Of a stretch of 51,723 nucleotides of DNA, positions 536-20,310 are shown one piece after another (within the stretch, counting starts at the first letter, position 1; every line of letters starts with the position of its first letter). Position numbers and translations under genes: made by a program. Under the pieces are notes generated by a model. It was not told where the DNA came from. It made no database searches and saw nothing but the letters and a program-made list of their open reading frames with translations. This stretch comes from an uncultured Erysipelotrichaceae bacterium (GTDB lineage: Bacteria; Bacillota_I; Bacilli_A; Erysipelotrichales; Erysipelotrichaceae): contig CALVFJ010000009.1 in assembly GCA_944326795.1 (NCBI GenBank), positions 1 through 51,723 of the forward strand, given 5' to 3'.

Positions 536-580
536 CTACCCGCTACGGGTAGGGTAAAATATATAATATTGTGCTATATT
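536..580 (+). promoter_or_regulatory. Regulon motif copy 1: inverted repeat plus -10
   Basis: CTACCC (536-541), five bases, GGGTAG (547-552), then GGT, followed by exactly 19 nt and a -10-like TATATT (575-580). The same architecture recurs at 8669 and 20266. The repeat centre falls near -43 relative to a start site expected 7 nt after the -10, the usual place for a class II activator. No consensus -35 is present. The TACCC-N5-GGGTA core resembles sites bound by NarL/LuxR-type helix-turn-helix dimers. Which local regulator binds is inference. Confidence 0.75.
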
Positions 581-677: not shown

Positions 678-2042
678 ATGAAATATAGAAAAATAATAAT
701 TTTACTAATTTTCATGGTATTGGTTTGCTCAGGATGTTATGATACGATCAAAAATGAAGAAACACCAACAACCATTACCATTTGGCATGTATATGGTGGA
801 CAGACAGATTCTCCTCTTAATGATTTGATCGAGCAATTTAATCAAACAGTAGGTAAGGACAAAGGAATCAATGTTCAAGTTACTTCAGTATCTAATACCA
901 ATACGATACATGAATTAGTACTTGCTGCAGCTAATAAAGAGCCTGGAGCTTCAGAATTGCCGGATCTTTTTACATCATATCCAAAAACTGTCTTAGCTTT
1001 ACAGGATGATGATATATTGGTAGATTTTAAAGATTATTTTAGTGAAGAGGAACTTGCAGATTTTATTCCAACTTTTATTGAGGAGGGAATGATCGATGAA
1101 CGTTTGCTTATTCTTCCTATCGCCAAATCAACAGAAATCATGTTTATAAATAAGACCATATTTGATCGCTTTGCTCAAGATACTGGTGTAAGTATCGATG
1201 ATCTGAATACTTGGGAAGGATTATTTAAGACAGCTGAAATTTATGCCGAGTGGACCGATGGACAAACTCCAGATATTCCTGAAGATGCAAAAGCTATGTT
1301 TGTTCATGATTATTATTTTAATTATTTCCAAGTGGGGGCAAGATCTTTGCATGAAGACTTTTTTGATGATGATAAAATAATCTTTGATACAGCTTTTAAG
1401 CAAGCATGGGATCCATTAGCACAAGCAGCACTTAAAGGAGGTGTCTGGTTAAAGGGAGGGTATGCGACCGAATCTATAAGAACAGCAGGAAGCATCGTGA
1501 GCGTAGCTTCTTCAGCAAGCATCTTATACTATAGTGATTTTGTAACATATCCTGACAATACTTCGGAAGAAATTACTATTATTTCGCGACCATGCCCAAT
1601 ATTTGAGAATGGTGAAAAAATGGTGATGCAAAGAGGTGCTGGTATTTGCATGGTGAAATCTACTCCTGAACGTGAAGAAGCTGCTTCTATCTTCTTAAAG
1701 TGGTTGACAGAACCACAACAAAATGTTGAATTTGTTACTCAGGGTGGATATATGCCAGTCACTAGAACTGCATTTGAAGATGAGTTACCAAAGGCAATTG
1801 AAGCGCTAGATAGTGAAAAATATGCATCGCTTTATCAGGCTTATTTGGATACTCAAAAAAATTATGAGTTTTATGTACCTCCACAGATAGATACTTATCT
1901 GAGTCTTGAAACAACGTTTGAAAATAATATTAGGTCACAATTGTCATCTGGCAGACGTGATTATCTAGATGCTGATCAAACAAATCTAGAACAAATCAGC
2001 TCAGAGCGCTTTCAAATGTTACAGCAGATCATGGAGAGGTGA
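678..2042 (+). CDS. Extracellular solute-binding lipoprotein, sugar-type, with no transporter genes nearby
   Basis: A 454-residue lipoprotein. The signal peptide ends in the lipobox VCSGC, and the mature part begins a type I/II periplasmic-binding fold of the SBP_bac_1/8 kind, with TITIWHVYGG at about residue 32. Such proteins normally deliver sugars to ABC permeases, but no permease or ATPase gene adjoins. The next gene, 20 bp downstream, is a membrane-bound LuxR regulator with an outer domain, so I infer that this protein presents a ligand to a sensor rather than a transporter. Transcription probably starts at the motif promoter 536-580. The ligand cannot be read from the sequence. Confidence 0.8.
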   Translation: MKYRKIIILLIFMVLVCSGCYDTIKNEETPTTITIWHVYGGQTDSPLNDLIEQFNQTVGKDKGINVQVTSVSNTNTIHELVLAAANKEPGASELPDLFTSYPKTVLALQDDDILVDFKDYFSEEELADFIPTFIEEGMIDERLLILPIAKSTEIMFINKTIFDRFAQDTGVSIDDLNTWEGLFKTAEIYAEWTDGQTPDIPEDAKAMFVHDYYFNYFQVGARSLHEDFFDDDKIIFDTAFKQAWDPLAQAALKGGVWLKGGYATESIRTAGSIVSVASSASILYYSDFVTYPDNTSEEITIISRPCPIFENGEKMVMQRGAGICMVKSTPEREEAASIFLKWLTEPQQNVEFVTQGGYMPVTRTAFEDELPKAIEALDSEKYASLYQAYLDTQKNYEFYVPPQIDTYLSLETTFENNIRSQLSSGRRDYLDADQTNLEQISSERFQMLQQIMER

Positions 2043-2062
2043 TATGAGAAAGGAGGAACATC

Positions 2063-3655
2063 GTGCTTAAAAAACTAAAAGAAATAAGAGCTCTTAATGC
2101 TTTTGCGAAAAAGCAAAGCATAGGAATGCAAAGAAAATTGATGCTTTATTGGGTATCTATGATCTTGGTAGTTTTTAGCACGGTTATTTTCCTTTTATCG
2201 ATTGCTGGCGCGTTTTCTCAAGATGATAAGCAACTTCATGAAGTAATGAAATTATATCTTAAAAATACTCAAGATCACTTAGTTGATCATTTTGATAATA
2301 TTACTGCAAAGAGTTTAAATTTATCCAAAGAATTAAGTAGAGAGATTGAACTAGAATTATCTAAAGAAGGTGTTGATTTTGATGAAATCAACGATGATCC
2401 TCAACTTTTGCTACATTTGCAAGAAGTCATGTATCCTCTAGTGAATACAACTCTTCAAACTGCCGATTGTAATGGAGCATATGTGATCTTAAATGCAACG
2501 ATAAATACGGCTTTATCAGATGCAGTTAATTCACGAAGCGGAATTCATTTGCGTTATTCTAATTTAAGTTCAAGCAGTCCAGTTAGCCCGACTGTTGTAT
2601 ACTTTCGCGGTATTTCTGATATTGCTTTGCAAAAGAATTTGGAATTACATAATCGCTGGAATCTAGAATTTGATATTAGCCAGATTCCATTATGTTTTGA
2701 GATGATGAATGCAACTTTAGATCGGCCAGCAGAAAATTATTATTGGACAAAACGTATTAATTTGAAGGACACTTGGGAATCTTCCATGCTACTTAGCGTT
2801 CCTATCGTTAGTAGTGATGGTACGGTTTATGGGGTGTGTGGAGCAGAAATAAGTGCATTGTATTTTCAATTTTCTTACCCAATGGTGGAAGATAAATTTG
2901 GATCGGTAGTTACTGTATTAGCTCCTATTGAAGATAATCGTCTTGTATTAGCAAAAGGATTAGTTGGCAGTGTTAGTGGTACTTATTTAGATTCGCAAGA
3001 AAGCTTGGTTATCCATCAAGGTCGATATTTTAATGAATATGATACTGGTAACGGAAAATATATTGGTTTGCATAAAATTGTACCGATTTCAAATAGTGAA
3101 TTAGACGATACAGTTTGGGCTGTTGCGATAATGGTACCGCAAGATAGCTATGTTGCCTATATTGCAGATATAAAACAAAATTGGATAATTGCGGCAATGA
3201 TCTTATTATGTATATTGTTGGCTTTTTCCTTTTTCCTATCAAGAAGATTTGTCCGACCTATCACGGAAAGTCTAAAGCGATTCCAACAAGAAGAAATGCT
3301 TGAGCAAGCCATGTCTTCAGGGATTTCGGAAGTTGACGAACTTGCGGAATTCTTGAATGCAAGAGCTCGTAATCAAAGATTGGAACAAGGAGATCTTCCG
3401 CCAAATATTGCAGATTTGTTTGATCAATTTATCGAGCGTAAGCATTTGCTTACAACAGCGGAACGCAATATCCTTAGGTATTATATTGAGGGTCATGAAA
3501 TTGCAGATATTCCAGATCTTGCTTTTATCAGTATGAGTACGGTTCGTAAGCATAATCGTAATATATATGAAAAGTTGGGCGTTTCATCACGCGATGAATT
3601 AATGCTTTATATCGATCTTCTACGTCGTTGTGGAAGGTTAAATGAATTGTTATAA
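2063..3655 (+). CDS. Membrane-anchored one-component LuxR-type regulator
   Basis: A 530-residue protein starting at GTG 2063 behind AGGAGG. Residues about 29-50 form a first membrane helix and about 372-393 a second. The roughly 320 residues between them should lie outside the cell and look like a Cache-type ligand-binding domain. The C-terminal 65 residues are a LuxR/GerE helix-turn-helix with LTTAERNILRYY, the recognition segment MSTVRKHNRNIYEKLG and a final Leu-rich helix. No kinase or receiver is seen, so sensing and DNA binding appear joined in one membrane protein. It follows the solute-binding lipoprotein in an apparent two-gene operon closed by a terminator. It is one candidate for the protein that binds the three-copy motif. 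Confidence 0.75.
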   Translation: MLKKLKEIRALNAFAKKQSIGMQRKLMLYWVSMILVVFSTVIFLLSIAGAFSQDDKQLHEVMKLYLKNTQDHLVDHFDNITAKSLNLSKELSREIELELSKEGVDFDEINDDPQLLLHLQEVMYPLVNTTLQTADCNGAYVILNATINTALSDAVNSRSGIHLRYSNLSSSSPVSPTVVYFRGISDIALQKNLELHNRWNLEFDISQIPLCFEMMNATLDRPAENYYWTKRINLKDTWESSMLLSVPIVSSDGTVYGVCGAEISALYFQFSYPMVEDKFGSVVTVLAPIEDNRLVLAKGLVGSVSGTYLDSQESLVIHQGRYFNEYDTGNGKYIGLHKIVPISNSELDDTVWAVAIMVPQDSYVAYIADIKQNWIIAAMILLCILLAFSFFLSRRFVRPITESLKRFQQEEMLEQAMSSGISEVDELAEFLNARARNQRLEQGDLPPNIADLFDQFIERKHLLTTAERNILRYYIEGHEIADIPDLAFISMSTVRKHNRNIYEKLGVSSRDELMLYIDLLRRCGRLNELL

Positions 3656-3665: not shown

Positions 3666-3709
3666 AGATGTACAAGATGCTAATTTTACCATTTGTACAT
3701 CTTTTTTTT
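3666..3709 (+). terminator. Strong Rho-independent terminator
   Basis: A perfect 10-bp stem, AGATGTACAA (3666-3675) with TTGTACATCT (3693-3702), is followed by eight T residues. It separates the lipoprotein/LuxR pair from the following sensor operon. A weaker 7-bp hairpin (GATACTT/AAGTATC) lies just after it. Confidence 0.9.
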
Positions 3710-3805
3710 GTCCATAAGATACTTCTATAAAAAAAGTATCCTTTGGACCATATAATATTTCTTATTAATTATGTATATTAATTATAAAGAAAGGGGGAAT
3801 GAGCG

Positions 3806-4159
3806 ATGATGAATTTGCTGATCGATCATCTAGAAGATTGCTCTACTCCTAATTACTTTAGTTTCGCCATTCGCTGTGAAGTATGTGGAGAATTTTGGTA
3901 TAGCAACAGCATTCCTTTTTCTAAAGCAGGACAGGTTACAGATTATGTTGATAAAAAAGAGCTGTATGATGTACTTTATCAAAAAGAAAAACAACGTGCG
4001 CAATTAGCAGCAGCCAAGGAAGCTAGAGAACACTTTAGCCAATGTCCTATTTGTCGACGCTTGGTATGTGATTCTTGTTTTCTAATTTGTGATGAAATGG
4101 ATATGTGTAAAGAATGTGCCACGAGGATGAAGGAAGCAGGAGAACCTGTGATACCATGA
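3806..4159 (+). CDS. Small zinc-ribbon protein coupled to the 7TM sensor
   Basis: A 117-residue soluble protein with four cysteine pairs: CEVC near residue 25, CPIC near 79, CDSC near 87 and CKEC near 101. These should bind zinc as one or two ribbons or treble clefs. The middle is an Ala/Glu/Lys-rich helix. A strong ribosome site (AAAGGGGG) precedes the ATG. The stop codon overlaps the next start as ATGA (4156-4159), which implies translational coupling to the 7TM sensor and perhaps a physical link to it. I do not recognise a named family. A role as an adaptor or regulator is inference. Confidence 0.7.
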   Translation: MMNLLIDHLEDCSTPNYFSFAIRCEVCGEFWYSNSIPFSKAGQVTDYVDKKELYDVLYQKEKQRAQLAAAKEAREHFSQCPICRRLVCDSCFLICDEMDMCKECATRMKEAGEPVIP

Positions 4160-6579
4160 AAGCGCGTATTATATCGATTGTTTTATTGCTAGGATTGTTA
4201 TTTAGTGGTTGTACGATCTCACGCGAAACAAGATATCTGATCGTCAATGTTGAAGGCCTTGAAGAGTATAGTAAAACCTTACAAGATTATCTAGCAGGAT
4301 ATGAAATGGGCATAACAACAGATACTATTTATGCTGAGGTTGCAAAAGGTAATGCTGTAGCATGTTTTGATGTACAGGCAATCCCAGCAATAAATCAAGG
4401 TGTGGCAAATTATTGGTATCCACATGCTTTATCGACCGTTGTTATTGCGGTTGATAGAACGCAAACAGATGCTGTTATAACGGGATGGAAGAGTCTTTTA
4501 GATAGTAAGGAAATAGTGGGAATCAGCAGCAATTCTATCATTCGTGATATGCTAGTTATGGGCTCGATATCCTATGGCTTAGATCCAATAAGTCCTTCAA
4601 AAGATGATGTTTTGAATTTATTAAAAGAGTTAGAGAATAATGATAGATTTATGCTTGAGGATTCTAAGTCTCCTATTTTGCTCTGTTTGGATCATGAAGT
4701 TGTTGCTTGGAATAAAGCAGGTAGCAATTATGAGATAATCGTGCCTAAAGAAGGAACATTATCATTTCAAGTAGGTTTATTATCTGATATTCCTTTAACG
4801 ATAGATGAAGGATTTGATGATGCATTGTTAGCGGCTGAATTACCATTAGCAAACGGGTCATATCCAAAACAATATCCTGAAGGTTATCAATCAGCTCATA
4901 AGCTCAGTGATGAAGATTATAAGTGGTTTTTAAATGTAACAGATGATTGTAGCAGAGATCTAAGACGAAAAGTTTTTAAATCTCGACTATATACGACGGC
5001 TGATCTTCGTGAACATATCTTATTTGCTATAGGGATAATCGCAGCAATATTACTTTGGAAGGGTACGGTATATCATCGCATGATTCGCCCTAATGTCAGT
5101 AAGGTGGTAAGTATACTGTGCTGGTTGATGGTTGGATGGATAATGTTGCGATTGTTTAAATATCAACTAGTTACAGAGAATGAGCTATCTCGTTTGTGTT
5201 GGTATGGTTATTATATTTTTCAGCTAGCTTTACCTGTTACATTATTATATCTAACGGAAATAATGGATCAAGCTGAAGATGGATCGCATTCTTTGAATTT
5301 TATGTATATTCCTTTTACTATTTATATCTTATCGGTATTGTTGGTATTGACCAATGATTGGCATCAACTAGTATTTATTTTTGATCCTAATGGAAATTGG
5401 GCTAAAGATTATAGTTATGGTATTGGTTATTGGTTCATCATGATATTTTTTGTTTTGATTTTTATCCTTGCCATCATCAAACTTTTTTGTAAAGGTAGAA
5501 GAAGTAATTATGTTAAAGCTAAGGTTTTATTGCTTTTACTTTGTGGATTATTATTTTTATATATCATTGGTTATATATATCGTGTTCCTTTAGCATGGGA
5601 AAGTGATATTACTATTTTTATTTGTGTCATAGCTGTTATATTTTTCGAAACCGTTCTTCATACGGGATTGATTCCAGTAAATATACAATATCAAAGACTA
5701 TTTGCTAATGCCCCAATAGGTTTGAGCTTATTAGATGATAAGGGGAATATGGTTTTATCTTCCAAAGGAACACCACCTATTTCACGATCAATTTGGAAAC
5801 GATTATGTATAGATATGGATAAGCCGTTATTGCGTGATAATGATACACAATTACATGCCATTTCTATTCATGGTGGCATAGCTGTATGGCAGGAGAATCT
5901 TGCTGTTCTAAATAGAATTAGGAAAGAAATCAAGGAGGTTCAGATTCGACTTGAGACAGCCAATGCATTGCTCAAAGAAGAAGAGGAAGTTAAAAAGCGT
6001 TTGTTGCAAGCAGAAACAAATCGAAAGCTTTTTGAACATCTTGAACGTGATATGGAAAGTCGAATCAATGCTTTAGTTGAATTGGTTGATGGGCAATCGC
6101 AAATCAAACAGGCAAATGAATCTATTGCACTTATCATTTTGTGTCTTTGTCATATCAAGCGTAGGTGTAACTTATTTTTCTTGGCATGCCAAGGCAATAA
6201 GTTATTAGGTGAAGAATTAAGCGTTTATCTTGATGAACTGATTGAGCTGGCTAGCTATGATGGATTAAAAGTTTTGATTCGATGTGGACAAAGTGGTTTT
6301 ATAGGAATTAATAATGCTACCATTTGTTATGATTTTGCTTTTGAAACAATTACATGGGCCCTAAAGGACACTGCTTCTGTGTTGATGGGCTATCTTGAAA
6401 ATGATGATGGATGTTTGATGTTCCGTTTTCTTCCAGGAAGCGATCCAAATAAATGGTATTTTTCTGATGAATTAATAGCTGGGATATCTAAGGCTAATGG
6501 AAATATTGTATACAAAGATCTAGATGATGCAATTGGAATTTGTTTGGTTTTACCTTTAGGAGGTGAGATTGATGGCTGA
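4156..6579 (+). CDS. Lipobox-bearing PBP-like/7TM sensor with a kinase-like but apparently inactive C-terminus
   Basis: An 807-residue protein. I choose ATG 4156 because it gives a proper lipoprotein signal peptide ending LFSGC and an ATGA overlap with the preceding gene; an earlier in-frame ATG at 4114 would add 14 polar residues in front of it. Residues about 20-280 look like a periplasmic-binding-type sensor, 287-503 contain about seven membrane helices like the 7TM regions of sensor kinases, about 515-580 resemble a PAS domain, 580-660 are a charged coiled coil, and the rest has the length of a kinase core. I find no H-box histidine and no N- or G-box there, so it may be inactive. It overlaps a complete kinase gene and may be that kinase's input partner. 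Confidence 0.65.
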   Translation: MKARIISIVLLLGLLFSGCTISRETRYLIVNVEGLEEYSKTLQDYLAGYEMGITTDTIYAEVAKGNAVACFDVQAIPAINQGVANYWYPHALSTVVIAVDRTQTDAVITGWKSLLDSKEIVGISSNSIIRDMLVMGSISYGLDPISPSKDDVLNLLKELENNDRFMLEDSKSPILLCLDHEVVAWNKAGSNYEIIVPKEGTLSFQVGLLSDIPLTIDEGFDDALLAAELPLANGSYPKQYPEGYQSAHKLSDEDYKWFLNVTDDCSRDLRRKVFKSRLYTTADLREHILFAIGIIAAILLWKGTVYHRMIRPNVSKVVSILCWLMVGWIMLRLFKYQLVTENELSRLCWYGYYIFQLALPVTLLYLTEIMDQAEDGSHSLNFMYIPFTIYILSVLLVLTNDWHQLVFIFDPNGNWAKDYSYGIGYWFIMIFFVLIFILAIIKLFCKGRRSNYVKAKVLLLLLCGLLFLYIIGYIYRVPLAWESDITIFICVIAVIFFETVLHTGLIPVNIQYQRLFANAPIGLSLLDDKGNMVLSSKGTPPISRSIWKRLCIDMDKPLLRDNDTQLHAISIHGGIAVWQENLAVLNRIRKEIKEVQIRLETANALLKEEEEVKKRLLQAETNRKLFEHLERDMESRINALVELVDGQSQIKQANESIALIILCLCHIKRRCNLFFLACQGNKLLGEELSVYLDELIELASYDGLKVLIRCGQSGFIGINNATICYDFAFETITWALKDTASVLMGYLENDDGCLMFRFLPGSDPNKWYFSDELIAGISKANGNIVYKDLDDAIGICLVLPLGGEIDG

Positions 6580-8002
6580 GTTTTATTGCTTTCCTCACTG
6601 GATGCTTACGGCATTGGTAATGATAATAGCGCTGTGTATCATCATGCAAACGCAAACCATATCATATAGCATTAGAAGGTTACGGATTAGCTGGGTCCGT
6701 AGATTAGAAAACATGCTAGAATGTGCAATCTTGATAATATTATTTTTATTTGCTGCACTGTTAGCGCAAGTGCAGTATGCTTTGGATTGTCAATTTCTTG
6801 CGTATAGTGACTATATTGTTGCTAGACAAGTTGGATTTTTGCTGATTACGATAGTTGGTACCGTTACTGCTGTAGGAACAGAGCTAGTTTGGCCTTTATT
6901 GATCATTGCTGCATCTGCTGTTTTGTTACCGATGGCCGAAGATATTACAGGATCTTTTTATCCAATCTTATTTTTCATTAGTATCATGTTTTATCTGATT
7001 CGCAGTGTTCATATATGCTTTATTCGTCGTCTTGATATTCATACGAATATTTCTTCAGATTCTATCAAGGAAGCAATTGATAAGTTACGTACAGGTTTAT
7101 TGTTATATAACATTGATGGTGATATTTTGCTAAACAATCATCAAATGGATATCATTGCAAAGCAGATGATTGGCAAATCTTTGGAAAATGGTAAAAAATT
7201 TCAACAAGTTATTGAAAGTGATACATTTTTGAAAGATTGTACTAGAGAATATTTAGGAGGTCAACTAGTATTCCGTCTTTCTAATTCTACGGTATGGAAT
7301 ATTTCATTTTATGATATTCCAATGGGGCGAGATAAACTGATGTTACTTTGTGCTGATGATGTTACGCAACGTTGGGATGCAATGAAACATCTTGATGTTC
7401 AAAATCAACTATTACAAAAACGCGGAGAAGAATTACGTCATACGATAGAAAATCTGCAAGCAATTTGTGAAGCAGAAGAAATTGTGCGTAGTAAAGGTAA
7501 GATTCATGATATTTTGGGTCAACGCATTAGTTTGTTGCTTCGTGCTATTCGTGATGGGCAGCAACCGAATAAAGCAATGTTGATAGATTTTATACATAAT
7601 CTTCCTACAATATTTCGAGAAGAACAAGTATCGAGTCCAGCACAACGACTTAAAATGCTAAAGGATACTTTTCAAGGAATGGATGTGTTCGTGGAAATAC
7701 AAGGAGAATTACCTGAAGATGAAGAAGTAGCAGATAATTTTGTGAATATTGCGGCTGAGTGTGTAACCAATGCTGTAAGGCATGGATATGCCTCACACAT
7801 TCAGTTTCATTTTTTTCAGAATGATTGTTGGCGCATGAGTGTCACAGATAATGGCATAACACTTAGTAAACCAATTAGAGAAGGAGGAGGAATCAAAGAT
7901 ATGAGGCGAAGGATCGATCGTCTAGGGGGAACCTTAGAGCTTTATACAACCCCACGATTTAGCATACAAATTTTTGTTCCAAAGGAGGAAAAAAGAAAAT
8001 GA
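6572..8002 (+). CDS. NarL-type membrane histidine kinase
   Basis: A 476-residue kinase. ATG 6572 is chosen over GTG 6563 because AGGAGGTGA (6558-6566) sits 5 nt before it. It overlaps the end of the 7TM sensor gene. Residues about 10-150 carry five or six membrane helices, followed by a PAS-like segment and a coiled coil. The phosphorylated histidine should be H312 in IHDILGQR, typical of the HisKA_3 class. The ATPase domain shows the N-box ECVTNAVRHG, the G1 motif TDNG, and a G2-like GGGIKDMRRR before DRLGG. The stop overlaps the response regulator start (ATGA), so the two form a cognate pair. Confidence 0.85.
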   Translation: MAEFYCFPHWMLTALVMIIALCIIMQTQTISYSIRRLRISWVRRLENMLECAILIILFLFAALLAQVQYALDCQFLAYSDYIVARQVGFLLITIVGTVTAVGTELVWPLLIIAASAVLLPMAEDITGSFYPILFFISIMFYLIRSVHICFIRRLDIHTNISSDSIKEAIDKLRTGLLLYNIDGDILLNNHQMDIIAKQMIGKSLENGKKFQQVIESDTFLKDCTREYLGGQLVFRLSNSTVWNISFYDIPMGRDKLMLLCADDVTQRWDAMKHLDVQNQLLQKRGEELRHTIENLQAICEAEEIVRSKGKIHDILGQRISLLLRAIRDGQQPNKAMLIDFIHNLPTIFREEQVSSPAQRLKMLKDTFQGMDVFVEIQGELPEDEEVADNFVNIAAECVTNAVRHGYASHIQFHFFQNDCWRMSVTDNGITLSKPIREGGGIKDMRRRIDRLGGTLELYTTPRFSIQIFVPKEEKRK

Positions 8003-8616
8003 TCAAAGTTCTTATTGTAGAAGATCACGCATCGATGAGAGAATCATTGACTTTAGCATTAACAGCTACTGGGGAATTTATGATAGTTGGTGAAGTTACA
8101 AATGCTGATTATGCCCTTGATTATTGTGGCCGTTTACATCCTGACATGGTCTTGATGGATGTGTGTACAGAAGGAGGATCATCGGGGTTAAAAGCTGTAG
8201 AAGCAATCCGTAAATCTTTTCCTGATATAAAGATCATTGTTATGACCGCTTTTGATGAGATAACTTATATTCCACGTGCAAAAGCAGCAGGAGCTAACGG
8301 TTTTATTTATAAAAGCAAGAGCTTGAATTACTTTTTAGAGGTTGCCAGAGAAGTCATGGCTGGTGGTAGTATTTTTCCAGAGCCTAAGACCATTCCGGTA
8401 CCCCAAGGAGAAGCACCATTGACAGAACGAGAAATGGAAGTGCTAAGGTTGATGTGCAAACATATGACCAATAGAGAAATTGCTCAAGAATTATTTATAA
8501 GTGAAAATACCGTTAAGTATCATAAGATGAATATGTTAGGAAAGACTGGATTTTCCAAGGCTGTTGATCTAGCTTTCTATATGATTTCCAATGGTTGGAT
8601 CAACCCATTATATTAA
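7999..8616 (+). CDS. NarL/FixJ-family response regulator
   Basis: A 205-residue two-domain regulator. The receiver (about 1-120) has the acidic pair E8-D9, phospho-acceptor D54 in VLMDVC, T83 and K105. The C-terminus (about 138-200) is a LuxR-type helix-turn-helix with LTEREMEVLRLM and ISENTVKYHKMNML. It is the predicted partner of the kinase encoded directly upstream. The three nearby copies of a TACCC-N5-GGGTA inverted repeat fit the binding style of this family, so this is the leading candidate to control 536, 8669 and 20266. The gene ends the operon at a terminator. Confidence 0.88.
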   Translation: MIKVLIVEDHASMRESLTLALTATGEFMIVGEVTNADYALDYCGRLHPDMVLMDVCTEGGSSGLKAVEAIRKSFPDIKIIVMTAFDEITYIPRAKAAGANGFIYKSKSLNYFLEVAREVMAGGSIFPEPKTIPVPQGEAPLTEREMEVLRLMCKHMTNREIAQELFISENTVKYHKMNMLGKTGFSKAVDLAFYMISNGWINPLY

Positions 8617-8668: not shown

Positions 8669-8713
8669 CTACCCATAGCGGGTAGGGTTAAATTGAATAA
8701 AAGCGGTTACAAT
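8669..8713 (+). promoter_or_regulatory. Regulon motif copy 2: inverted repeat plus -10
   Basis: CTACCC (8669-8674), five bases, GGGTAG (8680-8685) and GGT, then exactly 19 nt to TACAAT (8708-8713). No consensus -35. It should drive the receiver-like gene at 8751 and probably the long operon behind it. Geometry is identical to copies 1 and 3. Confidence 0.75.
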
Positions 8714-8750: not shown

Positions 8751-9128
8751 CTGAAAACAGTGATTTTAATAATGCAACGCGCTTCTTTAGCTCAAGGCTT
8801 AATAACTAAGGTACGTAATATCTCAAATATCAAGTTATATTATGAGCCAGATTACAATAATGCAAATGATACGATCAATAATTTTCGTGCTAATGGTGCA
8901 TTAGTAGAAGTAAGCGAAGATGATAAACATGATATAAACTCTTGCTTAACTTTGTGTGCAACGTTACGAAAAGCAACTCCTGAATGCCATTTGATGTTGA
9001 TGTGTCCTGAAGGACAAATGGAAACAATACATCGAGCTATTGAAGCTAAACGTAAAGGGGAAATTAATGATTTTGTATTTTATGATGCATCATTAGATTA
9101 TCTTGTGGCTTGTCTACAATCTTTGTAA
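8751..9128 (+). CDS. Degenerate receiver-like protein, copy 1, probable CTG start
   Basis: A small alpha/beta protein resembling a response-regulator receiver without an output domain. From CTG 8751 it has 125 residues, the same as its paralogue at 19216, and begins LKTVILIM against MKTILFIS. AAGGAGGTG (8737-8745) is 5 nt from this CTG but 14 nt from the next candidate, GTG 8760. The usual phospho-Asp position reads ALVEVSE, so phosphorylation seems unlikely. The C-terminus NDFVFYDASLDYL is shared with the paralogue (NNFIFYDNSMNYL). It is the first gene after motif copy 2. It may act as a stand-alone signalling or binding module; no function is known to me. Confidence 0.6.
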   Translation: MKTVILIMQRASLAQGLITKVRNISNIKLYYEPDYNNANDTINNFRANGALVEVSEDDKHDINSCLTLCATLRKATPECHLMLMCPEGQMETIHRAIEAKRKGEINDFVFYDASLDYLVACLQSL

Positions 9129-9440: not shown

Positions 9441-10841
9441 ATGGGACTAATTAAAGCTGGATTAGGAGCTACAGGCGGCGTTTTAGCTGATCAATGGAAA
9501 GAGTATTTTTACTGTGAAGCAATTCCATCAGATATTCTTGCTGTAAAAGGAAAGAAGAAGGTAACAGGACGTTCAAGCAATAACAAGGGTGATGATAATA
9601 TCATTACTAATGGTTCGATAATTGCAGTTGCGGATGGTCAATGTATGCTGATCGTTGAGCAAGGAAAAGTTGTTGATGTTTGTGCTGAACCTGGTGAATA
9701 TACTTACGATATGTCAACAGAACCAAGTATCTTCTCTGGTGATCTTGGAGAAAGCATTGGACAGGTTTTCCAAAATATTGGCAAACGTTTTACATTTGGT
9801 GGGGAAGCACCAAAAGATCAAAGAATTTATTATTTTAACACTAAGGAAATCATCGGTAACAAGTATGGCACACCATCTCCAGTTCCATTTAGGGTGGTTG
9901 ATCAACGAGCAGGGGTAGATATCGACATTGCGATTCGTTGCTTTGGTGAATATAGTTTTCATATTATAAATCCTTTGTTATTTTATACCAATGTTTGTGG
10001 TAATGTTAATGATACTTATAATCGAGATGAAATTGTTGGACAGATGAAAGCAGAGCTTTTAACAGCGCTACAACCGGCATTTGCTAAGATTTCAGAGATG
10101 GGAATTCGCTATTCTGCACTTCCAGGGCATACCTTAGAGCTATCTGAAGCTTTAAATGAACAATTATCTTCGAAATGGCGAGATCTTAGAGGAATGGAAA
10201 TTGTTTCATTTGGTGTATCAAGTGTTAAAGCTAATGAAGAAGATGAACAGATGATCAAGGAATTACAGCGTAATGCTGCATTCATGGATCCAACACGTGC
10301 AGCAGCTCATCTGGTAGGAGCACAAGCTAGTGCGATGCAATCAGCAGCAAGCAATCCAAACGCTGGACCTGCTATGGCATTTATGGGCATGGGCATGGCT
10401 GGACAAATGGGTGGCATGAATGCTCAAAACTTATTCCAGATGGGGCAGCAAGCTCAACAAACTACACCACAACCAGCTCCTGCAGTACCAAATAATGGTT
10501 GGACTTGTTCGTGCGGACAAACAGGTATTAGCGGATCATTTTGCCCAAATTGTGGAACAAAGAAACCAGATGCTTCAAATAGTTGGAAATGTGATTGTGG
10601 AGCAATTGTAACAGGGAAATTCTGTCCAGAATGTGGCAAACCTAAACCTATGGCAAATGGCTGGACCTGTTCATGTGGGGCCCAAAACAAAGGGAAATTT
10701 TGTAGTGAATGTGGTAAACCAAAACCTGCAGGTGTTCCACAGTATAAATGTGATAAATGTGGATGGGAACCAACTGATCCAAAGAATCCACCAAAATTCT
10801 GTCCGGAATGCGGTGATCCTTTTGATGACGGCGATATATAG
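9441..10841 (+). CDS. YdjI-like SPFH (band 7) protein with four zinc ribbons
   Basis: A 466-residue cytosolic or membrane-peripheral protein. Residues about 1-290 match the SPFH branch known from Bacillus YdjI, with opening MGLIKAGLG and WKEYFYCEAIP followed by the band-7 core. Residues about 295-350 are a Met/Gly/Gln-rich linker. From about 353 come four CxC or CxxC zinc ribbons in tandem, each ending in CPxCG or CSECG. SPFH proteins assemble on membranes and organise lipid domains. B. subtilis YdjI acts with PspA, YdjG and YdjH in membrane stress, and YdjG- and YdjH-like genes follow here at 14941 and 16070. The ribosome site is AGAGGAG. No pspA is in the window. Confidence 0.85.
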   Translation: MGLIKAGLGATGGVLADQWKEYFYCEAIPSDILAVKGKKKVTGRSSNNKGDDNIITNGSIIAVADGQCMLIVEQGKVVDVCAEPGEYTYDMSTEPSIFSGDLGESIGQVFQNIGKRFTFGGEAPKDQRIYYFNTKEIIGNKYGTPSPVPFRVVDQRAGVDIDIAIRCFGEYSFHIINPLLFYTNVCGNVNDTYNRDEIVGQMKAELLTALQPAFAKISEMGIRYSALPGHTLELSEALNEQLSSKWRDLRGMEIVSFGVSSVKANEEDEQMIKELQRNAAFMDPTRAAAHLVGAQASAMQSAASNPNAGPAMAFMGMGMAGQMGGMNAQNLFQMGQQAQQTTPQPAPAVPNNGWTCSCGQTGISGSFCPNCGTKKPDASNSWKCDCGAIVTGKFCPECGKPKPMANGWTCSCGAQNKGKFCSECGKPKPAGVPQYKCDKCGWEPTDPKNPPKFCPECGDPFDDGDI

Positions 10842-10867
10842 GAATAAGAATATAAGAGGTGCTACAT

Positions 10868-11275
10868 ATGGAAGGACAAAAATTTTTAAAAGTAACTTCG
10901 ATATTAATGATAATTGGTGGAATAATAGGCGCTATTGCAGGTACCATCGTTATTTTAGGAATTGGAGCATTGTTGGCTTTAGCTGATGATGCTCAGGGCA
11001 GTGGTCTTTTCTATGCTAGTTCGATCATCATGATCGTTGTATCCATAATTCAATTTATTGCGGGTATCAAAGGAGTAGGAGCTTGCAGTGCTCCAGCAAA
11101 AGCTGCTTCTTGTATCAAATGGGGCGTTATCGTTGCAGTTTTAACCGTCATTTCGATGATCATTGGACTAATTGGTGGAGGAGAATTTAATCTGATCAAT
11201 ATCGTATTGAATTTATTGGTGCCTGGTTTATATATCTATGGAGCAATACAGCTAAAAGATGTTGTTAATAAATAA
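10868..11275 (+). CDS. Small four-helix membrane protein
   Basis: A 135-residue hydrophobic protein with four likely membrane helices: about 10-37, 50-70, 85-105 and 110-128. ATG 10868 is preferred to GTG 10859 because AGAGGTG lies at 10856-10861. It lies 26 bp after the SPFH gene and 21 bp before the next gene, inside the same operon. Gly/Ile-rich helices and lack of catalytic residues suggest a structural or accessory membrane component. It recalls small DUF4064-like proteins, but I cannot assign it firmly. Confidence 0.7.
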   Translation: MEGQKFLKVTSILMIIGGIIGAIAGTIVILGIGALLALADDAQGSGLFYASSIIMIVVSIIQFIAGIKGVGACSAPAKAASCIKWGVIVAVLTVISMIIGLIGGGEFNLINIVLNLLVPGLYIYGAIQLKDVVNK

Positions 11276-11296
11276 TATTGAAAAGGAGAAAGAATT

Positions 11297-12145
11297 ATGG
11301 GACTTTTTGGAAAATTGTTTGAAAAAAAGGAATGCTCTATTTGTGGTGGTGAAATTGGTTTATTAGGGAATCGCAAACTAGACGATGGCAATTTGTGTAA
11401 AAATTGTGCAAGTAAACTATCTCCATGGTTTAGTGATCGACGCCATAGCACGGTAGCAGAAATTAGTGAACAATTAGCTTATCGTGAAGCCAATAAAGAA
11501 AAAGTAGCTAATTTTCGTACAACTAGGACCCTTGGTGAAAGAACTAAGGTATTATTGGATGAAGATGCAGGTTTGTTCATGGTTAGTGCAGCTAAAGATC
11601 TAAAAGAAGCTAATCCTGATGTATTATCATTTGCTGATGTTACTGGTTGCAAGTTGGATATCGACGAAAGAAAAACAGAAATCGAATATCGTGATAAAGA
11701 AGGAAATCGCCAAAGTTTTAATCCTCCTAGATATGCATACGCATATGATTTCTATATCGTGATCAATGTCAACAATCCATATTTTAATGAAATTCGCTTT
11801 AAATTAAACAGCGAAACAATAGATAATGATGTAGAAACATTATTAGATGGACCAAATGATATGGGATCGATGCGCACCGGTCTTCGTCCTAAATATGGAG
11901 GCATGCGAGGTGGTTTTCCTACTTCAAATGCTGATGATGTTCGCGCTAGTGTAGAATATCGCCAGTATGAAGAAATGGGATTGGAGATCAAGGAGGCATT
12001 GCTTCAAGTAAGACAAAAGGTACGGGAAGAAGTAGTAGCAGCTAATGCACCTAAAACTGCCGTTACTTGTCCGTTTTGTGGTGCTACAACTACTCCTGAT
12101 GCTAGTGGTTGTTGCGAATTTTGCGGTGGTGCTATTAATGGCTAA
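11297..12145 (+). CDS. DUF4428-type zinc-ribbon protein
   Basis: A 282-residue soluble protein. The N-terminus has the DUF4428 signature: CSICGGEIG, the segment NRKLDDGNLCKNC, and SPWF. The middle (about 70-190) is a beta-rich domain like the PH-like folds that accompany this family. A second zinc ribbon, CPFCG then CEFCGG, ends the protein. Genes of this type often travel with SPFH and TPM proteins, which is the context here. The gene follows the small membrane protein by 21 bp with AAAGGAGA as ribosome site. The molecular role is unknown. Confidence 0.7.
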   Translation: MGLFGKLFEKKECSICGGEIGLLGNRKLDDGNLCKNCASKLSPWFSDRRHSTVAEISEQLAYREANKEKVANFRTTRTLGERTKVLLDEDAGLFMVSAAKDLKEANPDVLSFADVTGCKLDIDERKTEIEYRDKEGNRQSFNPPRYAYAYDFYIVINVNNPYFNEIRFKLNSETIDNDVETLLDGPNDMGSMRTGLRPKYGGMRGGFPTSNADDVRASVEYRQYEEMGLEIKEALLQVRQKVREEVVAANAPKTAVTCPFCGATTTPDASGCCEFCGGAING

Positions 12146-12164
12146 AAAATGAGGTAAATTAATC

Positions 12165-13631
12165 ATGAAAAATAAGATGAGATTAAAATGGATACTTGTT
12201 ATAACAATGATGTTATCTTTTATTACTGCCTGCGCGAGAGAAGTTAAACCAAATCCTGATATAAAGGATGAAGCCACTAAAATGTCAGAAGTTACTGATA
12301 AAGAATTAAGTTCGGAAACAACGATCAATACGAATTTGTGGGATCTAGTTTATGATGAAAATGATGGATGGGTATATGAAGAGAATGATCTTTATGATGA
12401 TGAAACATTTTCTAATATCATGATGACCATTCCAGATGGTGATGATACATTGATTTATCTAGAAATTTATGTTGCGATCGAAGAACCATATACTTTCCGT
12501 GAATATCTAACTAGTTTTGGCTTCGATCAGTATGAATATGCTGTTAATGATGCTTATGAACTAACCAATGTTGGAGGCATAGACTGTTTGAAAAATGAAG
12601 GTGAATACTGGGGCTCAGAACGCTTGCGTTACCTAAATCGTGTAGAAGGCGCTAATGCAACGGTCTTAATTGAAGTTACTGGTGATTGTCATGATGAACG
12701 CGTTGATAAGCTATTATCAGGCTTAACGATCAAGCTAGAAGATATTGGTAATGAAGATGGTCCTTGGTATTGGGAAGGTGAACCATTTAAAGCTGAGGCG
12801 CATAGCGTTACGGTTGGTTCATATACGATCAATAGCGAATGGATCGCTATAAATGACTTTATAATGACGGATGAAACCTTTAATCACGATATTGCTGGTA
12901 TCAATGATGAAGTATTCTTATTAGTAGATGGAGTGCTTAAACGTTATGATTTTGATGGGAAATCTTTAAACTTTGTGGAAGATGTTGCTTTAACTTATGC
13001 TTATGAAAAAATTGATGCTGATGTTAATGGTAATATTTGGTTATCAAACTTTGGTGGTCCATTGACACAATTGCAAGATGCAACAGAAAAAGCTTCTTTT
13101 GAAGGTACGAATTATGTAGCGATGGATCCTACAGGAGCTTGGGGCATTAGCTATTTCACAGGCCCTGATTGTGAAAAGATCACGATAACTAACGAAGCTT
13201 TGGAAATCAAACCAATCGTTTTCAGTGATGTTGATCTTATAAATCGTGTATTTGTGGATAATGATCATATTTACATTTGTGGTTCTGATGTAGATGGAAG
13301 CGGTCATAAGGTATTTATTTATGATACTGAAGGTAATTTGCAGATGAAATTGGCAGATGAAGATGGTAGCAGCTTAGGAAGCATTAGTTTCTTTACAGCA
13401 ACAGATAATGGTTATGTTGCTTTAGATGGTAATATGCGTGAAGTCGTATTATGGGATAAGAATGGTACACATATTGGTGCGATAGCTGATAGCGATATCT
13501 TCGGTACAAGTTATCCATGGTTCTGTAATGGTACAAGGTTACAAGATGGTAGCATCATTGTAATTTTGACCGAAGAGCGTCCAGATAAATCAGCTATGGA
13601 ATTAGTTGCGTTTAAACTTACAGGTTTTTAA
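12165..13631 (+). CDS. Lipoprotein with beta-propeller-like C-terminal half
   Basis: A 488-residue exported lipoprotein whose signal peptide ends FITAC. Residues about 50-200 form an acidic alpha/beta segment resembling small surface-associated PsbP/DcrB-like domains. Residues about 235-488 contain repeated short strands with D-x-N-G or D-G turns, such as DADVNGNIWLS, VDNDHIYICG and ATDNGYVALDG, typical of a beta-propeller. It should sit on the outer face of the membrane and may sense or scaffold. It lies 19 bp after the DUF4428 gene. The family is not recognised; the propeller call is from pattern only. Confidence 0.65.
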   Translation: MKNKMRLKWILVITMMLSFITACAREVKPNPDIKDEATKMSEVTDKELSSETTINTNLWDLVYDENDGWVYEENDLYDDETFSNIMMTIPDGDDTLIYLEIYVAIEEPYTFREYLTSFGFDQYEYAVNDAYELTNVGGIDCLKNEGEYWGSERLRYLNRVEGANATVLIEVTGDCHDERVDKLLSGLTIKLEDIGNEDGPWYWEGEPFKAEAHSVTVGSYTINSEWIAINDFIMTDETFNHDIAGINDEVFLLVDGVLKRYDFDGKSLNFVEDVALTYAYEKIDADVNGNIWLSNFGGPLTQLQDATEKASFEGTNYVAMDPTGAWGISYFTGPDCEKITITNEALEIKPIVFSDVDLINRVFVDNDHIYICGSDVDGSGHKVFIYDTEGNLQMKLADEDGSSLGSISFFTATDNGYVALDGNMREVVLWDKNGTHIGAIADSDIFGTSYPWFCNGTRLQDGSIIVILTEERPDKSAMELVAFKLTGF

Positions 13632-13647
13632 TTGAGGAGGATCGAAA

Positions 13648-14754
13648 ATGAAACATTTAAAAAAATTATTAAGCATCCTAGTTGTGATCATGATGATAAC
13701 AAGCTTAACAGCTTGTGGCGATACTAAACCACCAACAGATAATGATGAGGAAGAAGACGAAATATTATTAAAAGTTGGCAAAGACTATGAAATATTATAC
13801 AAAGATGCTTTTATTACCAAAGATTTTAATGATCAAGATGTCCTTGTCGTAGAATACGATTTTACGAATAAAACTTCTGAAAAAGTAACATTTTTCTGGG
13901 CAATCTTAGATCAAGCAATTCAAAATGATACAGAGTTGGAATATGCCCTAATTTTCTATAATGAAACTTATGATGAATTAGAAACAAATAAATTCATCGA
14001 AATTGAAAAGGATGAATCTATCTCAGTAATTGGAGCATACAACTTACAAGATTTAGAAAATGAAGTAGAAATCATCGTTGAAGATATGAATAGCGATAAT
14101 AAAGATTCATTCACCCTTGATATATCAAAACTATCATATAAAGATGTGGGAACTTCTGAAGATGGTGAAAATGTTGAAGAAGAACCTAAGGGTAATGCTA
14201 CGATCGATAAAGCAGGTGGTTCTGATAAAACAACAGGTAGCTTGGAAAGTATTACTGATTGGTGGAATGGCGACTATTATGGCTGGTGGGTCATGACAGG
14301 ATGCTCAGGTTATTATGAAGGCATGGATGGTGAATGGTGGGATGTCAATGGCAATATCATCATTGGTGATGATAATGTTGGTACCGTAACATTATGGGAC
14401 GAAGATTACAGTGCGATAGATCCAATGGCTTCAGTAATCGTCAATCTTAGTGAATATGGAACAGGTCCTTATGGTACTTTAACTTCAGAAGAAGGATGGT
14501 TTACAGATATTAGTGTTGAACATGCTGATTGGATCGTAGATCCAGCATTATTAGATTACGAAGATATGATCTGGATCAATGGTTTCTATGAAAATGGCGA
14601 AGATGAATATACATACGATATTTATTTGCGTCCTTGGGGCAAATATTGGGATGATGTAAATCCAGAAGAACGCCCTAGATATTATGATGATTGGTATATT
14701 CCAATGATCGAAGCTGGAAATTATATGCCAGATGCCATCGGCGAAGGTATGTAA
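13648..14754 (+). CDS. Lipoprotein with DUF5067-like domain
   Basis: A 368-residue lipoprotein with lipobox LTAC. Residues about 42-165 read as a DUF5067-type immunoglobulin-like domain, with LLKVGKDYEILYKDAF and VVEYDFTNKT. An acidic linker (about 168-190) precedes a Trp/Tyr/Asp/Gly-rich C-terminal domain (about 195-368). That second part has many alternating aromatic residues and may be a small beta barrel. It follows the propeller lipoprotein by 16 bp behind GAGGAGG. After it comes a structured 186-bp gap, so expression of the downstream half of the operon may be set there. Confidence 0.7.
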   Translation: MKHLKKLLSILVVIMMITSLTACGDTKPPTDNDEEEDEILLKVGKDYEILYKDAFITKDFNDQDVLVVEYDFTNKTSEKVTFFWAILDQAIQNDTELEYALIFYNETYDELETNKFIEIEKDESISVIGAYNLQDLENEVEIIVEDMNSDNKDSFTLDISKLSYKDVGTSEDGENVEEEPKGNATIDKAGGSDKTTGSLESITDWWNGDYYGWWVMTGCSGYYEGMDGEWWDVNGNIIIGDDNVGTVTLWDEDYSAIDPMASVIVNLSEYGTGPYGTLTSEEGWFTDISVEHADWIVDPALLDYEDMIWINGFYENGEDEYTYDIYLRPWGKYWDDVNPEERPRYYDDWYIPMIEAGNYMPDAIGEGM

Positions 14755-14790
14755 GGTAAAACCTCAAGATTGAAGATGGCGAGGAATAAT

Positions 14791-14887
14791 ATCTATCCAA
14801 ATGCTTAAAATGGTTAAGGATTGGATACGCTGATAATATTTACAAGATCGGCTCTCGCCTCACTTTGAGGTGGGAGCTTTATTATTT
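14791..14887 (+). other. Two consecutive hairpins between operon halves, possible attenuator
   Basis: Hairpin 1: TATCCAA (about 14791-14797) pairs with TTGGATA (about 14820-14826), with a TTAA/TTAA pairing inside. Hairpin 2: GCTCTCGCCTC (14851-14861) pairs with GAGGTGGGAGC (14867-14877), 11 pairs including two G-T, followed by a T-rich tract, so it is terminator-like. GGCGAG near 14779 could pair instead with CTCGCC in hairpin 2, which would break it. This suggests partial termination or an RNA switch upstream of the YdjG/TPM part. Hairpin 2 is clear; switching is speculative. Confidence 0.5.
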
Positions 14888-14940
14888 TTAGATGATAGTA
14901 GTAATAATTGCAATCTTATAGATAGAAATGAGGGATATAG

Positions 14941-16053
14941 ATGACCACACAAGTTACAAATTATCAATGCCCAAGTTGCACAGGTCCTCTCCATTTCGTA
15001 GGATCATCAGGTAAATTGGAATGTGAATATTGCGGATCGACTTATGATGTCGAGCAGATCGAAGCTCTTTATAAAGAAAAGGAAGAAAAAGCTATTGAAG
15101 CATCACAGGAAGCTAAAAGCAAGGAAACGGATGGCAGCACATGGGATACATCTGATTTTCAAGAATGGGGTAATGAAGGTAAAGATATGCAGGCATATAG
15201 TTGTCCTAGTTGTGGAGCGGAGCTAATTTGTGATAAGACTACCGCTGCAACTTCTTGTCCTTATTGTGGAAATCCAACCGTAGTTCCAGGTAAATTTTCA
15301 GGAAACTTAAAACCGGATTATATCATTCCTTTTAAGGTCAGTAAGGAAGAAGCAATCACAGCCTTGAAAAAACATTATAAAGGCAAGGTTTTTTTGCCAA
15401 AAACCTTTACACAAGAAAATCATATTCAAGAAATTAAAGGAATATATGTGCCTTTTTGGATGTTTGATGGTATGGCAAACGGATCGGCTAATTATGAAGC
15501 ATCACGTACCCGCGTATATCGCTCGGGAGACTATGAAATTGCCGAAACCAAACACTATGAAATATATCGTGAAGGAAATGTAAAGTTTGAAAGAGTTCCG
15601 GTAGATGCTTCAAGCAAGATGCCTGATGATCATATGGATTCCATTGAGCCATATAATTATAAGGAATTAAAAAATTTTTCAACAGCTTATTTACCTGGCT
15701 TTCTAGCAGATAAATTTGATGTATCGGTAGATGACAGCTTAGAACGAGCAGATACCCGTTGCGAAGGTACTCTATCAGCGGCATTACGTGGTAGTGTAAC
15801 TGGCTATGATATGTGCGTATTGAAAAATGAAAATATTAATTTACAAAAGGGTAAGGTTCATTATGCTATGATGCCTGTTTGGTTACTTAGCACCAGATGG
15901 CATGGTAAAAATTTCCTTTTTGCCATGAATGGACAAACTGGAAAATTAGTAGGTGATCTTCCAGTTGACTGGGTTAAGTTTTGGGGGTTATTTGTTGCCA
16001 TTGCTATTCCTTTATCGATTGTTAGCTCGATAATCGCCATTATAATTTTATAA
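14941..16053 (+). CDS. YdjG-like zinc-ribbon membrane protein
   Basis: A 370-residue protein. Two N-terminal zinc ribbons are visible: CPSC/CEYC at about residues 10-32 and CPSC/CPYC at about 88-110, separated by an acidic helix. A conserved central domain (about 120-320) contains PDYIIPFKVSKEEA and GIYVPFWMFDG, typical of the YdjG group often mislabelled as a primosomal N-prime-like protein. One membrane helix ends the protein (about 345-369). In B. subtilis YdjG works with YdjH and YdjI. The TPM (YdjH-like) gene follows 16 bp downstream, preserving that pair. It lies behind a structured gap. Confidence 0.8.
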   Translation: MTTQVTNYQCPSCTGPLHFVGSSGKLECEYCGSTYDVEQIEALYKEKEEKAIEASQEAKSKETDGSTWDTSDFQEWGNEGKDMQAYSCPSCGAELICDKTTAATSCPYCGNPTVVPGKFSGNLKPDYIIPFKVSKEEAITALKKHYKGKVFLPKTFTQENHIQEIKGIYVPFWMFDGMANGSANYEASRTRVYRSGDYEIAETKHYEIYREGNVKFERVPVDASSKMPDDHMDSIEPYNYKELKNFSTAYLPGFLADKFDVSVDDSLERADTRCEGTLSAALRGSVTGYDMCVLKNENINLQKGKVHYAMMPVWLLSTRWHGKNFLFAMNGQTGKLVGDLPVDWVKFWGLFVAIAIPLSIVSSIIAIIIL

Positions 16054-16069
16054 AAAGGAGGGAATATTA

Positions 16070-17380
16070 ATGATTAAAAAATTTTATACGATCCTAGCAT
16101 TAACCTTAGTCCTAACATTATTCCCTTGCCTTTCGGTAAATGCTTCAACCGAGTTTGGCGTAATCTATGATGAATCAGATCTTTTAGGAACATCAAGCCT
16201 GCAAAAGCAAGGTGAACAAATTCTACCACAGTTAATTGAAGAACTTGGTTTCGACATACGCGTAGATGTCTTGCTTGGTATCAATGGTGATAATCTAAAT
16301 GAAACAGCTTATTGGATCTATGATTATTATGATTATGGCTATGGTGAAAACAAAGATGGGCTTTCGTTAACAATTTATCTTGAAGAGCAGCCAGATGGTA
16401 GTTTAGTCATGCCAATAGATGTTAAACCGGTCATTTATGTTAATCTAAGTGAAGAAAGAGGATCATCACAAGTGCTATTTGATGAGCTTTATGAAGCTAC
16501 CAAATCATATTTAGATCCAAAGGCATGGAATGGTGGAGATGTGGATAAGAACGCAATAGCTCTTACACAAGCGGTAGATGCCATCATCAATGTAACAAGT
16601 AATTATTTCTTATCATCAAATAATGTAAATGATACCTCAGCGGTTAATGATCATGAAACAGAGACTACAGAGCAATATGATCAATATGTTTTTGATACTG
16701 TTGAACTACTTTCTTATAAAGAATGGGAAAATTTAGAAGCTTTAGCAAGAGATATCTCTAAAAAACAAAAATGTGGTGTTTATTTTGTGATCGTAGATGA
16801 TTTTACAGAGTATGGTAATGGTGATGTTTATGATGTAACTACCCAAATTTATCATAATTATGATTTTGGTTATGGTAAAAGAAGAGATGGCATAATCGTC
16901 TTGCTAAGCATGGAAGAACGAGATTATGCGATGTTTGTTTATGGTGATTATGCTGAATATGCTTTTGATAAATATGGTCAAGAACAATTAGAAGCAGCTT
17001 TTTTAAGTGATTTTGGCAACGATGATTGGTATAGCGGCATTTCTCACTATTTAAATACCAGCGATGAATATCTAACCTTGGCAGATGAAGAAAATCCCGT
17101 ACGCCGACCATATTTTCTATGGATCTTAGTTATGGTTGGTGGTTCTTGTTTGGTATCTGGAAGCATTTGCTTCTATTTGTTGACAAGAATGAGATCAGTT
17201 CATAAAAAAGTTGATGCTAATGAATATGTCAATGCAGAAGGTTTGAATTTAATGCAAAAATATGATCGATATACCCACACGACCGAAACCCGTACTAAAA
17301 TTCAAAAAAATAACTCTAGTGGTGGAAGTACTAGATCAGAAAGTGGCGGTGGTGGAAGTGGTCGCAGTGGTAAATTCTAG
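16070..17380 (+). CDS. TPM-domain membrane protein with two TPM-like repeats (YdjH-like)
   Basis: A 436-residue exported membrane protein. A signal peptide (about 1-26) is followed by a TPM-like domain (about 28-170) with VIYDESDLL and a YDYGYGENKDGLSLTIYL stretch. A second one (about 205-340) has YHNYDFGYGKRRDGIIVLLS. A membrane helix lies at about 345-372, then a cytoplasmic tail ends in a Gly/Ser/Arg-rich segment (SGGGGSGRSG). TPM domains occur in YgcG and YdjH proteins linked to membrane stress or photosystem repair. Two copies in one chain are less usual. The spacing to the YdjG-like gene is 16 bp. Confidence 0.8.
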   Translation: MIKKFYTILALTLVLTLFPCLSVNASTEFGVIYDESDLLGTSSLQKQGEQILPQLIEELGFDIRVDVLLGINGDNLNETAYWIYDYYDYGYGENKDGLSLTIYLEEQPDGSLVMPIDVKPVIYVNLSEERGSSQVLFDELYEATKSYLDPKAWNGGDVDKNAIALTQAVDAIINVTSNYFLSSNNVNDTSAVNDHETETTEQYDQYVFDTVELLSYKEWENLEALARDISKKQKCGVYFVIVDDFTEYGNGDVYDVTTQIYHNYDFGYGKRRDGIIVLLSMEERDYAMFVYGDYAEYAFDKYGQEQLEAAFLSDFGNDDWYSGISHYLNTSDEYLTLADEENPVRRPYFLWILVMVGGSCLVSGSICFYLLTRMRSVHKKVDANEYVNAEGLNLMQKYDRYTHTTETRTKIQKNNSSGGSTRSESGGGGSGRSGKF

Positions 17381-17394
17381 AAGGAGGTCAGCCA

Positions 17395-18537: not shown

Positions 18538-18581
18538 AAAGTAAATACGAGATATCTGTAAAAAATGAGAGGAGAATTTAT

Positions 18582-19148: not shown

Positions 19149-19215
19149 TATATAGAAAAAATCAAAAAAACTTAATTGTTACAAGTAACCTAAGCTATTA
19201 GCATAGGAGGTAATT

Positions 19216-19593
19216 ATGAAAACAATTTTGTTTATTTCAGCTAACAAAATACTTGCTCATGGTTTATCTACGGCAATTTTATCCAAGCCAGAAGTTGGAT
19301 ATAAATGGACAACTCATCTTAATTATGCACAAGCTATGATTGGAGTCGATATTATTACGGCGGATATGGTGATTTTTGATATAGTAGATCAAAATGAAAT
19401 AGATCATGCTGTAAAGGTTTGTCAAAGGCTACGCTCAAGTAATCGTAACATTAAGATTTTGTTTTTGGTAAGACCTGAACAAGAAAACATTCGTAATAAA
19501 TCTGTTGATGCACAAAATGCAGGAATAATTAATAATTTTATTTTCTATGATAATTCTATGAATTATTTACTTGCTAAGTTAGAGGCATTATAG
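19216..19593 (+). CDS. Degenerate receiver-like protein, copy 2
   Basis: A 125-residue single-domain protein, paralogue of 8751. The fold order fits a receiver: strand KTILFIS, helix with KILAHGL, strand 3 MVIFDIVD, strand 4 IKILFLV and the end NNFIFYDNSMNYLLAKL. Unlike copy 1 it keeps an Asp in strand 3 (FDIV), but the paired acidic residues of an active receiver are missing at the N-terminus. AGGAGG precedes the ATG. It closes the long operon that copy 1 opens, so the two bracket the SPFH/TPM genes. They may be signalling adaptors. Function unknown. Confidence 0.65.
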   Translation: MKTILFISANKILAHGLSTAILSKPEVGYKWTTHLNYAQAMIGVDIITADMVIFDIVDQNEIDHAVKVCQRLRSSNRNIKILFLVRPEQENIRNKSVDAQNAGIINNFIFYDNSMNYLLAKLEAL

Positions 19594-20265: not shown

Positions 20266-20310
20266 CTATCCATAACGGGTAGGGTGTGGAATGTAAAATA
20301 AGGTTATAAT
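20266..20310 (+). promoter_or_regulatory. Regulon motif copy 3: inverted repeat plus -10
   Basis: CTATCC (20266-20271), five bases, GGGTAG (20277-20282) and GGT, then exactly 19 nt to a perfect TATAAT (20305-20310). One base of the left half differs from the other copies. It should drive the small lipoprotein at 20376. Confidence 0.75.

Follow-up and report, generated by a model that had tools for sequence, protein, structure and literature searches.

The locus studied here raises the question of what a solute-binding lipoprotein does when its gene is followed by that of a membrane-held LuxR-type regulator, with no permease or ATPase gene adjoining the two. The pair lies in the analysed window, a stretch of 51,723 nucleotides that is a whole contig (CALVFJ010000009.1) of an uncultured Erysipelotrichaceae bacterium, the genome of which measures 1.44 Mb in 37 contigs and is 80.7% complete. 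We conclude that the two proteins probably form a self-contained one-component signalling system, in which the solute-binding protein (SBP) gates the DNA-binding helix-turn-helix (HTH) of the membrane LuxR protein. The features on which the argument draws are collected in Table 1.

Table 1 Features of the SBP/LuxR locus and its candidate control sites (window coordinates)
Feature	Position	Strand	Basis
Palindrome CTACCC-GCTAC-GGGTAG (CTACCCGCTACGGGTAG) in the pair promoter	536..552	+	Motif scan; TANNNT 22 nt on
-10-like hexamer TATATT, 22 nt past the palindrome	575..580	+	Motif scan
Solute-binding lipoprotein, SBP_bac_8, member of the sensor-paired subfamily	678..2042	+	PF13416, E 3e-29; 454 aa
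Membrane LuxR regulator	2063..3655	+	Pfam and hydropathy; 530 aa, GTG start
Outer sensor domain portion, with homology to the outer domain of GGDEF-EAL proteins	2210..3178	+	hhalign
Part coding for the LuxR/GerE HTH	3446..3610	+	Pfam
Hairpin and T run resembling a terminator, behind the regulator gene	3667..3710	+	By eye; unlisted by the terminator scanner
Dyad GATACTT...AAAGTATC, candidate second operator, before the zinc-ribbon/kinase/response regulator operon	3718..3740	+	Inference; conserved in place
NarL-type response regulator, alternative candidate for binding the palindrome	7999..8616	+	Pfam
Second palindrome, before receiver-like gene 8760-9128 and the SPFH/zinc-ribbon/TPM genes	8669..8685	+	Motif scan
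Third palindrome, before lipoprotein 20376-20759	20266..20282	+	Motif scan

The anatomy expected from the original prediction, a sugar-type binding lipoprotein followed by a two-pass membrane LuxR protein, was borne out with exact coordinates. Cys20, the presumed lipid attachment site of the SBP, is invariant in 12 family members, and the lipobox reads as non-textbook since the residue at -3 is Cys. The regulator gene starts 20 bp after the SBP stop. Its product consists of a first transmembrane helix (TM1, residues ~27-50), an outer Cache-type domain (~50-372), a second helix (TM2, ~373-393), a cytosolic linker and a GerE HTH (462-516; PF00196, E 2.3e-10), which is the only family above the Pfam cut-off. 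Because hydropathy shows only two strong peaks, we read the protein as two-pass with an outer domain of ~320 residues. This outer domain matches no Cache-family model, and a PDB profile search of it gave nothing significant, the best hit being a weak one to a Cache domain protein (E 0.03); it is called Cache-type because its relatives match Cache-type families, with dCache_1 in 6 and MCP-like_PDC_1 in 9 of the 17 homologous outer domains. Single-protein AF2 models, built from three sequences each, reached a mean pLDDT of 46 for the regulator and 39 for the SBP, too poor to carry a structural argument.

A search of 294 genomes from the order gave 16 proteins that match the SBP at 212 bits or more and are taken as its family; the next-best match stands at 70 bits. 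All of these loci were opened, and in 16/16 the next gene downstream encodes a homologous membrane sensor. A 17th pair, again an SBP followed by a homologous membrane sensor, was found in Anaerotignum lactatifermentans An390 (locus L058), and the gaps between the two genes run from -8 to 68 bp over the 17 pairs. None of the 17 pair loci has a permease match, compared with 14 of 15 control loci of next-tier SBPs, in a test that used four queries from the window genome, may miss distant permeases and took in only the first 16 kb of the window; the lone control locus free of a match is a 3.7 kb contig. These counts uphold the predicted dedicated signalling unit lacking a transporter. Since the SBP family is always sensor-paired, the search for the gene pair in other genomes also returned co-occurrence, and not the absence of it that was named as evidence against the prediction. 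The pairing is beyond chance, and it is old and dedicated. Outside the order, the SBP profile had no match at E 1e-60 in 395 genomes of the class, with at most four candidates scored per genome.

The sensors of the 16 pairs carry three kinds of output: GGDEF-EAL in 11 (seven by Pfam, four by 40-86% full-length identity to those), a LuxR HTH in three (the window genome and G056 by Pfam, G120 by 72% identity) and a hybrid kinase in two (G103 by Pfam, G098 by 41% identity over 1291 residues). The An390 protein is a fourth LuxR-output form. Homology of the outer domains extends across these outputs (hhalign E 2e-16, 98.7%, 349 columns). Trees were built for 12 of the 17 pairs, one from the SBPs and one from the outer domains. 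In both, the LuxR-output members form one clade with support 100/100 that takes in the distant G056 pair (identities of 33% and 25%), while many other forks stay open. Pairwise distances of SBPs and outer domains correlate with r = 0.94 over all pairs and 0.88 over 62 distant pairs, to which shared species history contributes in part.

Because of the pairing, the permease absence and the exchanged outputs, NspS-MbaA and XylFII-LytS are the most likely models for how the pair works, with a DNA-binding domain taking the place of their outputs. In the proposed mechanism, the lipoprotein would catch a ligand, probably a carbohydrate-like solute, and dock on the Cache-type domain that the regulator exposes outside. 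Via TM2 and the linker beyond it, the resulting change could then reach the LuxR HTH. This domain may bind DNA as a dimer while still held in the membrane and switch a neighbouring promoter, for which the palindrome regulon and the GATACTT dyad are the candidates. The window pair would be a branch of an older SBP-sensor module, other branches of which end in GGDEF-EAL or a histidine kinase.

The original prediction also placed the regulon motif in the promoter of the pair, and the motif is present there, with 0 occurrences expected from 100 shuffles; the nearby copies that were to be sought also turned up, at 8669 and 20266. Elsewhere in the genome the palindrome occurs near the end of contig C1 (C1:104153), and six further sites lie in the related loci (L057:741 and 9222; L058:483, 1595, 3797 and 11945). 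A TANNNT hexamer follows the 17-mer by exactly 22 nt at 10/10 sites, each other offset from 8 to 45 being found at fewer than 3/10, although these ten palindromes are not ten independent events since several are orthologous. The layout suggests an activator site overlapping the -35 position. Among the 294 genomes, matches with 0-1 mismatch are confined to the window genome (G000) and G120, 19 others having 2-mismatch matches only; a reversed-pattern control gave scattered matches as well.

Which protein reads the palindrome is less clear, and here a competing explanation has about an even chance: the palindrome regulon may be run by the two-component system of the same gene cassette (kinases 4114-8002 and the NarL-type regulator), with the membrane LuxR protein being one of its targets and acting elsewhere, for example at the GATACTT dyad. 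Such an arrangement opposes autoregulation and leaves SBP gating untouched. A LuxR-type response regulator stands beside the membrane LuxR protein in all three cassettes, those of the window, L057/G120 and An390. The motif follows the cassette and co-occurs with both regulators, so its presence does not separate the two candidate binders. A palindrome lies directly after the response regulator gene in all three, and the HTH of the response regulator is the more conserved (94-97% identical; membrane regulator HTH 88-91%, outer domain 66-73%). The recognition helices of the two proteins differ (TVKYHKMN against TVRKHNRN) and are both conserved, so the two HTHs probably read different sites. Additionally, the L057/G120 cassette has no palindrome at up to five mismatches before the SBP gene, bar an oppositely pointing site ~490 bp off. 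An SBP-promoter palindrome is thus found in two of three cassettes, and autoregulation would be possible in those two; the promoter site itself is real, whereas the claim of autoregulation is weaker, given the cassette that lacks the site and the rival binder. In three cassettes the dyad immediately follows the gene for the membrane LuxR protein, and the window genome has a single copy of it, which makes it a natural, if thinly based, candidate target of the membrane regulator. It is only a lead, because neither the letters nor the spacing are the same in the G120/L057 copy. The distance between the GATAC arms varies from 11 to 13 nt, which speaks against the dyad as the alternative site, and the exact pattern is absent in G120 and G056. 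The G056 pair points the other way as well. It has no kinase or response regulator neighbour, yet is divergent from a similar operon of zinc-ribbon and TPR-lipoprotein genes, and this context fits control of zinc-ribbon/lipoprotein operons by the membrane LuxR protein. On balance, we lean slightly towards the response regulator as an equal or better candidate for binding the palindrome.

The gating step has been weighed against two further explanations. That the SBP is an ordinary transport protein using a distant permease, with the regulator reporting substrate availability only, appears improbable: its subfamily always adjoins a sensor, no permease-like match was found at the 17 pair loci, and permeases of their own accompany the other SBP_bac_8 loci opened in the window genome, on C19 and in the pot operon of C9. 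The permeases nearest to the pair (23220-24820) belong to this potABCD-like operon with its own SBP (24789-25865). Binding-protein-dependent permeases do occur in the genome, with 20 PF00528 matches, sugar binders of UgpB and MBP type match the SBP profile, and orphan permeases could use this SBP given that the genome is 80.7% complete. Still more doubtful is the idea that the SBP triggers regulated proteolysis of the membrane LuxR protein and that this activates it by setting the HTH free. The ~60-residue cytosolic linker between TM2 and the HTH would suit such cleavage, but no gene in the cassette was recognised as encoding a protease, and for membrane one-component activators, CadC among them, DNA binding in the membrane is described in an excerpt of PMC6320335. 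SBP gating of an intact, membrane-held regulator is the reading that we retain.

The surroundings of the pair are themselves conserved. In both the L057/G120 and the An390 cassette the genes follow the order SBP, membrane LuxR, zinc-ribbon, SBP-like 7TM, kinase, response regulator, receiver-like and SPFH, with one extra gene ahead of the SPFH gene in An390, and the hairpin behind the regulator gene has the same position in all three cassettes. In the protein encoded at 4114-6579, a lipoprotein-like N-terminus that matches SBP_bac_6 weakly is joined to a 7TM region of kinase type, for which no HATPase match was obtained. Its neighbour is an HATPase protein in its own right (6563-8002), and the 4114-6579 product is perhaps a second SBP-coupled sensor in the cassette. 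Two small proteins with no Pfam match (8760-9128 and 19216-19593) flank the SPFH operon at either end. They look like receiver domains that have no output domain, and they are related to each other, as the second is matched by the L057 orthologue of its counterpart (24%, E 5e-14). The gene run 9441-19593 encodes SPFH, DUF4428, DUF5067, zinc-ribbon-like, TPM and DUF6935 proteins, of which the SPFH (9441), zinc-ribbon-like (14941) and TPM-domain (16070) proteins stand behind the 8669 palindrome. We take this SPFH/zinc-ribbon/TPM run to resemble the ydjGHI-type envelope stress genes of B. subtilis. The SPFH protein YdjI acts with YdjG, YdjH and PspA in membrane stress, according to passages of PMC8581546. 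A role of the palindrome and cassette genes in envelope maintenance is plausible from their predicted products.

The membrane LuxR form is rare, being present in 3 of 272 family genomes and in none of five genus mates. One named contig carries it, NZ_JACSNY010000026.1 of An390, where the cassette may reflect misassembly or misbinning. From this rarity, from the fact that G120 belongs to a genus other than that of the window genome and from the GC difference at the An390 contig (44% vs 37%), the cassette looks accessory and perhaps transferred. Plasmid matches for the regulator and viral-contig relatives of the SBP were sought, and none were found.

Known SBP-driven receptors include kinases, chemoreceptors, c-di-GMP enzymes and Ser/Thr kinases, as listed in parts of PMC9602780 and PMC11113362. 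With such systems the window pair shares an SBP gene next to the receptor gene, no permease, and a receptor whose outer domain lies between two membrane helices. The window protein is none of these receptors, its output being a GerE HTH only, while its relatives have GGDEF-EAL or kinase outputs; the DNA-binding output is the variant feature of the pair among SBP-activated receptors. In NspS-MbaA of Vibrio cholerae and Sinorhizobium, a periplasmic binding protein is believed to relay its signal to a membrane-bound GGDEF-EAL protein and not to a permease (excerpts of PMC5646818 and PMC9993111). This layout is that of the GGDEF-EAL members of the SBP-sensor family, whereas the window pair has a LuxR HTH output, a sugar-type SBP_bac_8 protein and relatives in low-GC Bacillota-type genomes. 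The clostridial three-component systems XylFII-LytS and CuaD-CuaSR use a second SBP, apart from that of the transporter, which binds the outer domain of the neighbouring sensor (PMC10384115, in the portion consulted). They employ a histidine kinase and a separate DNA-binding response regulator, whereas in the window the sensor and the DNA-binding domain are one protein.

The original prediction had further held a membrane-bound LuxR regulator to be unusual. This does not apply to membrane LuxR proteins as such, since Eggerthella lenta has 83 transmembrane LuxR-type regulators, but does apply to SBP coupling through a Cache-type outer domain; DadR, HcdR and CadR of Eggerthella are membrane LuxR-type gene activators, shown genetically (both from sections of PMC9734109). 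That type has 10-12 helices, whereas the window regulator has two, one on each side of its large outer domain, and is partnered by an SBP. Unlike the window regulator, proteins of the CadC/ToxR family have an N-terminal winged-helix DNA domain, a single transmembrane helix and no SBP partner. Like the proposed regulator, they are membrane-integrated one-component activators that bind DNA from the membrane (described in parts of PMC6320335 and PMC7888679). A search of the open-access literature, which leaves most subscription journals outside, found no paper joining an SBP-activated receptor with a membrane LuxR protein.

We therefore somewhat favour the view that the pair represents a further class of SBP-driven receptor, in which an SBP gates a membrane-tethered LuxR protein, the output having been exchanged within an old SBP-Cache module, and which is layered over a two-component system and an SPFH/TPM envelope operon, all within a compact cassette that is perhaps transferable. 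If true, this would be the shortest SBP-driven path, leading from an outside ligand to a promoter in two proteins, and it would offer a simple test bed for SBP signalling through a membrane helix. The SBP-sensor family provides natural chimeras, the same module with three outputs, for studying the exchange of output domains.
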